Source of the DNA: Nitrospinaceae bacterium
Lineage (GTDB): Bacteria; Nitrospinota; Nitrospinia; Nitrospinales; VA-1
Assembly (NCBI GenBank): GCA_029261695.1
Contig: JAJDAV010000021.1
Span: 1 to 37,611, forward strand
Length of the DNA: 37,611 nt
Direction: 5' to 3'
Position 1 is the stretch's first letter, and every line of letters starts with the position of its first letter. The translations under genes were made by a program, and so were the position numbers. Positions 322-3,443 of the stretch are shown piece by piece. A model generated the notes under the pieces. That model did no database searches. It saw nothing but the letters and a program-made list of their open reading frames with translations, and had not been told where the DNA came from.

Positions 322-2550
322 ATGAAAAAAAACTGGTTAAATTCATTCACGGTTGCCATTGGCCTGACTCTGGCTTCGCTTTATATCTACACGCTCGATC
401 TTACCTTTTTCCACCTACTCGAACTCAAAAGTTACGATTTTAAAATCCGTTCTCGCGGTGAACGCCCGACAACGGGGCAGGTGGCTATTGTCGCTGTCGA
501 CGAAAAAAGCCTGAAAGAAAAAGGTCGCTGGCCGTGGCCTCGAACTTATATGGCTGATCTGGTGGATAAAATCAGCGGAGCGGGAGCGGCGGTGATTGGA
601 TTTGATATCTTGTTTCCCGAGCCTGACAGCTATGTTCCTTTTCAAGCGGTTCAAGAGGCGGTGAAGAAAAAGGATCTTACGAATATCGATTCTGAAAGTT
701 TAATGCAATGGATGCATGAGGTGGGGGATTCGGATCGGTTGTTCGCGGAATCTACCCTTAAATCGGAAAAGGTGGTTTTGGGTTATTTTGTTTATACGGA
801 GTCAGACCCGTTGGGAGACACGGCCGAAGCAATGTCAGCCAAGCAAATGGAGTTGTTGGATTTTTCTGAATACCCGATCGTACAACGTTTTGATAAACCA
901 GAGGACCGAGTTCCTTTTAGGGTGATGAAATCGGCAGGTCTCAGTCTGCCGAAGTTAGTCGATGCTGCGAACAGTGTGGGTTATGTTTCGTATTTGCCTG
1001 AGGTGGATGGGGTGGTGCGCTGGATTCCCATGGTCATGCAGTTGGGTGAAAATTTTTTTCCACCTTTCAGTTTGCAGATGCTCCGCGAAGCGACCCAGCT
1101 TAATCTGGCGGTTCGTATTGCTCCGTTCGGGATTGATGGTGTGAAGTTGGGGGAGAGTGTGTTTCCGACGTCTGAGAGTGGCGACTTTTTGATCAATTAT
1201 TATGGGCCGGCTTTCACTTTCACTCATTACACGGCATCGGAAGTGCTCGACGGAAAGATAGGAAAGAAGGAGTTGGAGAATAAGATCATTCTGGTGGGTG
1301 GCACGGCCGCTGGTATCCTTGATATTAAAACAACACCCTATGGCACGCTTTACCCGGGTGTGGAAGTGCATGCAAATGTTATCGAAAATCTAATTCAGCA
1401 GGACTTCATTGTTCAACCGACCTGGCTGAAAATTCTGGATTTTTTTATGATCTTTGTTTCTGGAATCCTTTTGGGCTTAATATCTATCTACTTTAAAGCC
1501 TATGCGATGGCGGGCATGGTGCTGTTAGGAGTATGTGGCTACCTGGGTGTAGATTATTATTTGTTTACAGAAAAAGGATTGTGGGTGAATACGGTCTATC
1601 CGATTTTCACGCAGATTTTTGTTTATTCGGGGATCACTTTATTTAAATTTGGATTTGAAGAAAGAGAAAAAAGATTTATCAGGGGAGCATTCAGTCAATA
1701 TCTGGCACCAGCGGTGGTCGATCAGTTGGTGGATAATCCCAATCTATTAAAACTGGGTGGTGAACGGAAAGAGCTGACCGCATTTTTTTCGGATGTCGCT
1801 GGGTTTTCCACCATATCTGAAAATTTGGAGCCGGAAGAACTGGTAGACCTATTGAATCATTATTTGACCGAGATGACGGACATCATAATGAAGTATGAAG
1901 GTACGGTGGATAAGTTCGAAGGCGATGCGATAATCGCTTTTTTTGGTGCACCTATTCCGCATGAGGATCATGCTCGGCGCACTTGCCTGGTAGCACTGGA
2001 AATGCAGCACCGGCTTGCCGAGCTTCGCGAAGGCTGGAAAAAGGAAGGCAAACACGAGTTGTTTATGCGTATTGGCATCAACACCGGCGCTATGGTTGTT
2101 GGGAATATGGGTTCGAAGAGTCGCATGGACTATACAATGATGGGCGATTCGGTAAATCTTGCGGCGCGTTTAGAAGGTGTAAATAAACAGTATCGAACTT
2201 ATACTATGATTAGTCAGTTTACTTATGAACAGGTTAAAGATGATATTGAAGTACGAGAACTCGACTTAATTCGGGTTGTTGGGAAAAATGAGCCGGTAAG
2301 AATTTTTGAGGTGTTGGCAGAGAAAGGTAAGTTAAGCGAGGAGTTTCAGAAAAAACTTCCTGTTTTTAATGAGGGACTCGATCACTATCGAAATCGAAGA
2401 TGGGAAGAGGGTATCCAATGTTTTGAAAAGGTTCTGGCTATGGATGAAGATGATGGCCCCTCGTTGACTTATTTTGAACGATGTATTACTTTTCAGGGCC
2501 AACCTCCTCCAGATGAATGGGATGGAGTTTTTGGCATGACTACTAAATAA
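322..2550 (+). CDS. CHASE2-domain adenylate cyclase (class IIIb type)
   Basis: Predicted membrane sensor making a cyclic nucleotide, most likely cAMP. Order: TM at about 8-28, extracytoplasmic CHASE2 sensor about 30-365, three TM segments about 370-443, a cyclase transducer element (ERREKRFIRG...), then the class III catalytic domain about 475-665. Metal-binding aspartates are D491 (FFSDVAGFS) and D535 (FEGD). The purine-specifying pair is K531 and T605 (YTMMGD), and the transition-state pair N612 and R616 is present. Lys/Thr is the class IIIb arrangement known from bicarbonate-responsive cyclases such as CyaB. The tail (about 675-715) looks like a TPR-type helical pair. An in-frame stop at 313-315 makes ATG 322 the first possible start. 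The next gene begins 12 nt downstream, suggesting an operon. Confidence 0.92.
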   Translation: MKKNWLNSFTVAIGLTLASLYIYTLDLTFFHLLELKSYDFKIRSRGERPTTGQVAIVAVDEKSLKEKGRWPWPRTYMADLVDKISGAGAAVIGFDILFPEPDSYVPFQAVQEAVKKKDLTNIDSESLMQWMHEVGDSDRLFAESTLKSEKVVLGYFVYTESDPLGDTAEAMSAKQMELLDFSEYPIVQRFDKPEDRVPFRVMKSAGLSLPKLVDAANSVGYVSYLPEVDGVVRWIPMVMQLGENFFPPFSLQMLREATQLNLAVRIAPFGIDGVKLGESVFPTSESGDFLINYYGPAFTFTHYTASEVLDGKIGKKELENKIILVGGTAAGILDIKTTPYGTLYPGVEVHANVIENLIQQDFIVQPTWLKILDFFMIFVSGILLGLISIYFKAYAMAGMVLLGVCGYLGVDYYLFTEKGLWVNTVYPIFTQIFVYSGITLFKFGFEEREKRFIRGAFSQYLAPAVVDQLVDNPNLLKLGGERKELTAFFSDVAGFSTISENLEPEELVDLLNHYLTEMTDIIMKYEGTVDKFEGDAIIAFFGAPIPHEDHARRTCLVALEMQHRLAELREGWKKEGKHELFMRIGINTGAMVVGNMGSKSRMDYTMMGDSVNLAARLEGVNKQYRTYTMISQFTYEQVKDDIEVRELDLIRVVGKNEPVRIFEVLAEKGKLSEEFQKKLPVFNEGLDHYRNRRWEEGIQCFEKVLAMDEDDGPSLTYFERCITFQGQPPPDEWDGVFGMTTK

Positions 2551-2562
2551 CGGAGAAGTGTT

Positions 2563-2928
2563 ATGTTGTTGGGGGAGTTTCTATTAGAGAAGGGGCTGGT
2601 AAAGGAAGAGGAACTAGTCGCTGCGTTGGATGATCAACAGCAGAATAAAATGCCTATGGGCCAAATGGCGGTTCAGAAAGGTTTTCTGGATTCTAAATCC
2701 TTATTTAAAGTTTTAACGGAACAAAGAAAAAAGTTGCGAGACGCTAACGATTTTGGTGCAATTGCTGTTGAGATGGGTTTACTTAATCCGAAGCAAATAG
2801 AAGAATTGGTTGAGTCTCAAAGTACCACGAATGAATTGCTGGGAAACCTTCTGGTTGGAAAGGGTATTTTACCGCGTGAAAAACTAGTAGAGGTTTTACG
2901 GGAATATAATTCAGTGAATGCCAAATAA
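2563..2928 (+). CDS. Small four-repeat MshEN-like protein
   Basis: A 121-residue protein built of four similar 24-residue units at 2-25, 31-54, 63-86 and 92-115. Each fits x-x-G-x-x-x-x-x-x-G/M-hydrophobic-hydrophobic-x4-hydrophobic-x3-hydrophobic-x-x-Q/Y. This is the half-motif of MshEN (T2SS ATPase N-terminal) domains, which bind cyclic-di-GMP in MshE. The leading Arg of the RLGxx consensus is absent in all four units (L, P, D, L). No signal peptide or TM is visible. It follows the adenylate cyclase by 12 nt and is probably co-transcribed. A nucleotide-responsive or adaptor role is inference; it could be a purely structural helical repeat. Confidence 0.72.
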   Translation: MLLGEFLLEKGLVKEEELVAALDDQQQNKMPMGQMAVQKGFLDSKSLFKVLTEQRKKLRDANDFGAIAVEMGLLNPKQIEELVESQSTTNELLGNLLVGKGILPREKLVEVLREYNSVNAK

Positions 2929-2975: not shown

Positions 2976-3443
2976 GTGAAAAACAAGAAACAGGTGGGTA
3001 AGGCTTTAGGAAAGGTTGCCAGTGGGTTATACGTGGTAACGGCTAAATGCGAAGATAAAGAAGATGCTGTTTTAGCGAGTTGGGTCAATCAGTGTTCGTT
3101 TGATCCCCCTGCTGTGACGATTGCATTGGGTACTCTGCGAGCGGCACGACTTTTGGTTGAGGGATCGGATGCTTTCATCGTAAATATTCTCCCCCAAGAT
3201 GATAACACTTTGCTCAAACATTTCAGTCGGCCTCCGGAAGATATTTTTAAAGGTGTTAAAACCCGTAAGGGTCTCGATGGTATCCGTATTTTAAGCGATG
3301 CGGTTGCTTATCTAGAATGTGAAGTTGCTCATTCCATGCAGTCGGGTGATCATGTTTTGTATGTGGGGGAAATTGTCGGGGGAAAAACTTTAAAAGGCGG
3401 CGACCCTTATATTCACGTCAGGGATAACGGATTTAATTATTGA
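2976..3443 (+). CDS. Flavin reductase-like FMN-binding domain protein
   Basis: A 155-residue protein of the flavin reductase / DIM6-NTAB split-barrel family. Recognisable parts are the opening KALGKVASGLYVVTA, the strand VLASWVNQCSFDPPAVTIAL that contacts FMN in this family, FIVNILPQ, and the late YVGEIVGG segment. It is expected to bind FMN and use NAD(P)H to reduce flavin or act as the reductase partner of an oxygenase, but no partner is adjacent. The start is GTG at 2976, preceded by AGAGGAG at 2962-2968. The 3' end overlaps the convergent small membrane protein gene by 7 nt. Confidence 0.85.
   Translation: MKNKKQVGKALGKVASGLYVVTAKCEDKEDAVLASWVNQCSFDPPAVTIALGTLRAARLLVEGSDAFIVNILPQDDNTLLKHFSRPPEDIFKGVKTRKGLDGIRILSDAVAYLECEVAHSMQSGDHVLYVGEIVGGKTLKGGDPYIHVRDNGFNY

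Follow-up and report, generated by a model that had tools for sequence, protein, structure and literature searches.

The CHASE2 cyclase and the small gene behind it

The window analysed here, 37,611 nucleotides in length, is the whole of one contig (C21) of a 3.07 Mb Nitrospinota assembly whose nearest named relatives are Nitrospina and metagenome-assembled genomes of the Nitrospinaceae. Close to its start lie a cyclase gene, a small gene that begins after a gap of 12 nucleotides from the cyclase stop codon, and a flavin reductase gene, with the following features:

322–2550, + strand: membrane adenylate cyclase of 742 aa, CHASE2 – transmembrane – class III cyclase – TPR-like tail (Pfam and solved-structure matches, conserved clade)
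382–1467, + strand: CHASE2 periplasmic sensor domain, residues 21–382 (PF05226, E 7.4e-62)
1768–2292, + strand: predicted class IIIb cyclase catalytic domain (PF00211, Guanylate_cyc, E 6.1e-24)
2365–2454, + strand: weak TPR repeat in the cyclase C-terminal tail (PF07719, E 0.001, below Pfam's cut-off)
2552–2558, + strand: ribosome-binding-like GGAGAAG in the intergenic gap (from the sequence)
2563–2928, + strand: tandem MshEN_N protein of 121 aa (NF053729 twice; AlphaFold2 pLDDT 87, eight helices; Foldseek match to MshE, 5htl)
2566–2637, + strand: MshEN unit 1, residues 2–25, LLG...Q (motif table)
2653–2724, + strand: MshEN unit 2, residues 31–54, PMG...Q (motif table)
2749–2820, + strand: MshEN unit 3, residues 63–86, DFG...Q (motif table)
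2836–2907, + strand: MshEN unit 4, residues 92–115, LLG...Y, an aromatic residue in place of Gln (motif table)
2976–3443, + strand: flavin reductase, third in the conserved series of genes and usually 3' of the MshEN gene in relatives (PF01613)

Our analysis of the cyclase bears out the preliminary description of this DNA, which had read the first gene as a membrane CHASE2 cyclase with the full class IIIb Lys/Thr catalytic set and had placed the second 12 nucleotides behind it (reading frames 322–2550 and 2563–2928). Both domains are matched by Pfam, the transmembrane segments being called by eye from the sequence, and Asp491, Lys531, Asp535, Thr605, Asn612 and Arg616 are invariant in nine cyclase orthologs. 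From general knowledge of class III cyclases, we take Asp491 and Asp535 to be the metal-binding aspartates, and likewise assume the roles of the Lys531/Thr605 and Asn612/Arg616 pairs. Judged by sequence, these six residues are the set expected for a class IIIb adenylate cyclase, and together with the CHASE2 domain they place the protein among the predicted CHASE2 class IIIb adenylate cyclases; its closest solved structures are CyaB and other bacterial adenylate cyclases, and its product would be cAMP. The weak TPR repeat in the tail is an addition to the earlier account. Upstream of the cyclase lie 203 bases whose translation, judged by eye, presumably represents the tail of a DUF559-like gene.

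A free-standing MshEN_N tandem with an eroded motif

The small protein consists of nothing but four 24-residue MshEN units, as had been noted, separated by spacers of 5, 8 and 5 residues; in each of the two pairs the motifs stand 5 residues apart, and the four units make up two complete MshEN_N domains in tandem. The NCBIfam model of the MshE-related c-di-GMP motif (NF053729) matches the protein with 82.8 bits against a cut-off of 38, and its halves pass that cut-off separately, with 52.7 and 39.1 bits. PF05157, the C-terminal subdomain of the full MshEN domain, had no match in the small protein at E ≤ 1; the protein is not among the PF05157 matches of the window genome, in whose pilus ATPase the model covers the stretch after the motifs. 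Weak Pfam matches to DUF4388 (25.4 against a cut-off of 25), FumaraseC_C and DSBA overlap the MshEN units and were set aside. When the gene is compared by the NG86 method with that of its closest congener, dN is 0.13 and dS about 1.0, other pairs having saturated dS, and this signature of purifying selection argues that the small reading frame is a real gene.

The structural comparison with the MshE N-domain that the preliminary description had proposed points the same way. An AlphaFold2 model built with 26 homologs (pLDDT 87) contains eight helices in the alternation of short and long that is the MshEN_N pattern, and Foldseek against the PDB returned the four-helix bundle of MshE (5htl_B, rmsd 1.4 Å over 60 columns, probability 0.96, but E 1.5), with PilF GSPII domains and Xanthomonas citri PilB also among the best matches. 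We attribute the weak E-values (about 1 to 5) to the shortness of the domain. The model thus has an MshEN-type fold, not that of some unrelated helical-repeat protein.

The units of MshE each recognise one GMP half of the dinucleotide through the motif RLGxx(L/V/I)(L/V/I)xxG(L/V/I)(L/V/I)xxxxLxxxLxxQ (PMC5013675). The Arg at position 1, whose absence from this protein had been pointed out before, is replaced by L, P, D and L in units 1–4 of the window protein and is nearly absent across its orthologs (0/18, 0/19, 3/19 and 0/19, or 3 of 75 unit positions). At position 3, Gly is present in 15, 19, 19 and 19 of 19 orthologs for units 1–4; four have lost it from unit 1, where the Nitrospina lineage has Ser. 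Gln occupies position 24 in all 19 orthologs for units 1–3 and in none for unit 4, which has Phe or Tyr throughout. The window protein itself retains Gly in all four units and Gln in units 1–3, with Tyr in unit 4, and its units 1 and 2 match 10 and about 8–9 of 11 motif positions, among them the two Gly, the two Gln and the Leu cluster.

What does the loss of the Arg imply for ligand binding? It is made less striking by the window genome's own PilB, which has Lys and Pro at the motif Arg positions, and the published evidence on the residue is conflicting: changes of Arg9 in MshE cost at most about fivefold, Gly11 being the essential residue (PMC5013675), whereas Ser in place of the motif-II Arg in PilF GSPII-A abolished measurable binding (PMC12002112). 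Nor can the invariant Gln be taken as proof of a live pocket, since two distant four-unit proteins (L164, L165) keep the Gly and Gln of unit 1 although unit 2 has lost its own. Canonical c-di-GMP reading is therefore unlikely as the common function of the family, as judged from these alignments, while the first MshEN pair of the window protein could still bind a dinucleotide weakly or in an altered fashion. The earlier suggestion of a dedicated nucleotide-reading partner is weakened by the family-wide loss of the Arg, the aromatic residue in unit 4 and the missing unit-1 Gly in Nitrospina.

Among known proteins, the MshEN c-di-GMP receptor domains of MshE and PilF GSPII-B/C are described with the same two 24-residue motifs, 5-residue spacer and four-helix bundle (PMC5013675, PMC12002112), and the small protein keeps their Gly positions and, in units 1–3, their Gln positions. 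It differs from them in being a free-standing MshEN_N tandem with neither MshEN_C nor ATPase, in lacking the Arg of every unit and in lacking the Gln of unit 4. The N-domains of PilF GSPII-A (PMC12002112), XpsE and X. citri PilB share its fold and an eroded c-di-GMP motif, and that of X. citri PilB docks a partner protein (PMC8389850); unlike the small protein, which keeps the Gly and three Gln, they retain the C-terminal subdomain and belong to ATPases. The preliminary description had considered its pairing with a cyclase a new arrangement, which is overstated: MshEN proteins with adenylate/guanylate cyclase or REC, and the tandem (MshEN_N)2, were listed in 2016 (PMC5013675), and the set of modules is that of those examples as described there, except that the MshEN tandem and a CHASE2 cyclase are here encoded by distinct genes of one operon. 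In the open-access papers searched we found no description of two separate conserved genes of this kind, of their restriction to one cyclase clade or of their placement beside two-partner-secretion (TPS) and curli genes. Four-unit MshEN modules also occur fused to receiver domains and histidine kinases (L162, L166, L167, L169, L170), among the 7 to 10 MshEN matches that each genome of one deep-branching Nitrospinota family has.

Conservation and surroundings of the pair in Nitrospinota

The small protein and the cyclase were each sought in 77 genomes of the phylum. By hand count, 19 of the 64 genomes of the order carry both, 2 the MshEN gene only, 3 the orthologous cyclase only (G046, G047, G035) and 40 neither (Fisher 3e-11, in a test that ignores shared ancestry). 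In a tree of 58 CHASE2 cyclases, 12 of the 24 rows of one clade (support 100/100) are MshEN-linked as against 0 of 34 outside it; the window cyclase, not itself a row, is 84% identical to row L062. The pair is spread over four families of the order within this one clade, and next to 63 cyclase relatives without a Nitrospinota label, some on contigs that end early, no MshEN gene was found. Conservation of the pair, which the preliminary description had wanted checked, is real in Nitrospinota.

Spacing and loss patterns bind the two genes further. The gap measures 10–17 nucleotides in all but one orthologous pair compared, suggesting translational coupling, and within genera the cyclase and MshEN genes appear and vanish together. 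In G002 the cyclase is reduced to its last 64 residues and the MshEN frame is broken, beside a flavin reductase intact at 93% identity, a pattern that reads as joint decay. G045 has an intact MshEN gene, with internal deletions in the cyclase and in TpsA. Both genomes are apparently draft assemblies (60 and 350 contigs), in which assembly error is possible. The internal cyclase deletions of two genomes, at L180:640-1400, where TpsA is also affected, and at L064:5377-6030, each with intact flanking genes, may be real decay or assembly error. At L086 a cyclase copy is followed directly by the flavin reductase. The small protein diverges much faster than the cyclase, being 31–33% identical to its Nitrospina orthologs where the cyclase reaches about 75%; searches of a collection of genome contigs that started from the small protein by itself, or from an alignment of it, gave no usable pattern or relative, unlike those with the cyclase alignment, which did recover relatives. 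We do not claim a foreign replacement of the MshEN gene in Nitrospina from the incongruence of the trees (rejection only without the G011 copy, p-AU 0.003, and not with it, p-AU 0.34).

In many relatives, a TpsA exoprotein gene (PF05860) lies directly upstream of the cyclase, preceded in order by genes for a TpsB outer-membrane transporter (PF03865) and a FecR protein (PF04773), making the cyclase part of a TPS locus there; in the window, the DUF559-like fragment takes this place and no TPS locus adjoins. In three genomes of one genus (g10), the MshEN ortholog (43–47% identical) closes a curli operon instead, after curlin-repeat proteins, CsgE, CsgF, CsgG and a barrel protein, with no cyclase adjoining, although all three genomes hold cyclases of the clade elsewhere. 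These operons (L177, L178, L179) are large, with several curlin-repeat proteins. The recurring context is thus surface-adhesin export and not the cyclase alone, and of the earlier proposal that the small protein is dedicated to the cyclase, the conserved pairing stands, while the curli-linked orthologs and the three genomes with a cyclase alone speak against exclusivity. CHASE2 cyclases of class III (CyaD1/CyaD2/CyaK) have been described in Sinorhizobium meliloti in association with the outer-membrane barrel NsrA (PMC13001267); the available text of that report mentions no MshEN partner, and in the Nitrospinota relatives the barrel is the TpsB transporter, encoded at the cyclase locus itself.

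A tentative model and its alternatives

In conjunction, these analyses lead us to propose, tentatively and with somewhat less than even confidence, that the small gene is a lineage-specific accessory of a cell-envelope cAMP module, and that its product, an adaptor with the MshEN fold, works from the cytosol within a cAMP/adhesin module. The periplasmic CHASE2 domain would sense an envelope or surface-adhesin signal, upon which the class IIIb domain would make cAMP. The translationally coupled tandem MshEN_N protein would dock in the cytosol, its target being the cyclase or an inner-membrane complex that the two share, and there tune or localise the output of the cyclase. It is conceivable that the degenerate second MshEN pair provides the docking surface, and that the first, with its Gly, Leu and Gln contacts but not the Arg, binds c-di-GMP weakly or not at all.

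The proposal starts from the two genes themselves, the MshEN-like fold under purifying selection, the conserved pairing with its short gaps, joint decay in G002 and confinement of every MshEN-linked cyclase of the tree to one clade, the co-occurrence across genomes, the family-wide erosion of the pocket and the TpsB–FecR–TpsA genes of relatives. Motif-less MshEN/GspE-type N domains are known to dock partners: PilB of X. citri has no c-di-GMP motif and binds PilZ (PMC8389850). Against it stand the g10 ortholog, whose role may lie in adhesin export and not with the cyclase, the intact MshEN gene beside the deleted cyclase of G045, the invariant Gln of units 1–3 as a possibly live ligand site, the faster divergence of the small protein and the absence of a TPS locus from the window. 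A single-chain read-through AlphaFold model of the cyclase catalytic part with the MshEN protein (pTM 0.60, disordered junction) was uninformative and was discarded as docking evidence. Of the two roles first offered for the small protein, adaptor or nucleotide reader, the former fits best and is the more likely, the latter being weakened by the eroded motif.

Could the first pair nevertheless bind c-di-GMP or a similar dinucleotide, for instance cGAMP, and gate the adjacent cyclase in trans, so that c-di-GMP talks to cAMP? We consider this rather unlikely, though deserving of attention. The predominantly matching motifs of units 1 and 2 favour it, as do the tolerance of MshE to Arg9 changes with Gly11 essential (PMC5013675) and the 10 GGDEF and 21 cNMP domains of the window genome, where two cNMP-PAS-GGDEF-EAL proteins enclose the second CHASE2 cyclase (L182:7456-14252, contig C20), so that the two messengers are already wired together; yet one Arg change sufficed to abolish binding in PilF GSPII-A (PMC12002112) and here both Arg of the pair are gone, Nitrospina has Ser for the essential unit-1 Gly, and L164 and L165 deprive the retained Gly and Gln of their value as proof. 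It is doubtful that a free-standing, Arg-less tandem MshEN protein senses such a dinucleotide and acts in trans as the switch of a CHASE2 adenylate cyclase; were this true, c-di-GMP status would feed into cAMP, opposite in direction to the cNMP-GGDEF-EAL arrangement at the second cyclase of the genome. Like cyclases adjoin a cNMP-PAS-GGDEF-EAL protein in six other Nitrospinota genomes (L049, L051, L053, L054, L188, L190), a cAMP-to-c-di-GMP wiring. At eight alphaproteobacterial loci (L099, L106, L108, L109, L123, L128, L129, L130; domains checked in three), a convergent cNMP-EAL gene lies just downstream of a CHASE2 cyclase, a candidate for a widespread cAMP-controlled c-di-GMP phosphodiesterase pair.

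An MshEN protein devoted to exporting or assembling surface adhesins, and linked to the cyclase only by co-transcription, seems unlikely to us. TPS and curli systems, to our knowledge, need no cytosolic ATPase and so offer no obvious MshEN target, the window genome has no adjacent TPS gene, and the curli-linked genomes all still carry the cyclase clade elsewhere; what commends this explanation is the ortholog that closes the curli operon of g10 with no cyclase beside it, the TPS genes ahead of the cyclase in many relatives and the regulation of pilus and secretion ATPases by MshEN domains in other systems (PMC5013675). A functionless adjacency, with the small gene as an operon passenger, would account for the three genomes with a cyclase alone and for the copy at L086, but is very improbable given how the genes come and go together within genera, their joint decay in G002 and their restriction to one cyclase clade. 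Hardly credible is a small protein that reads the cyclase's own product, cAMP or cGMP, an idea for which only adjacency speaks: MshEN pockets fit two guanine-ribose-phosphate halves, MshE failed to bind c-di-AMP (PMC5013675), and the genome has its 21 ordinary cNMP-binding domains for cAMP. These domain matches compare with only 3 class III cyclases in the window genome (G000), where contigs C40:1663-3024 and C74:36353-37839 hold runs of three and four small (about 130–176 aa), single-domain cNMP-binding proteins.

Returning to the adaptor that we favour, a small protein that modulates the cyclase would link cAMP to the c-di-GMP/MshEN world at an adhesin-secretion locus in relatives of marine nitrite oxidisers, and the pair would offer a compact two-gene system for learning how Arg-less MshEN domains work. 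More generally, MshEN half-domains can leave the pilus ATPases and serve as stand-alone components of operons.
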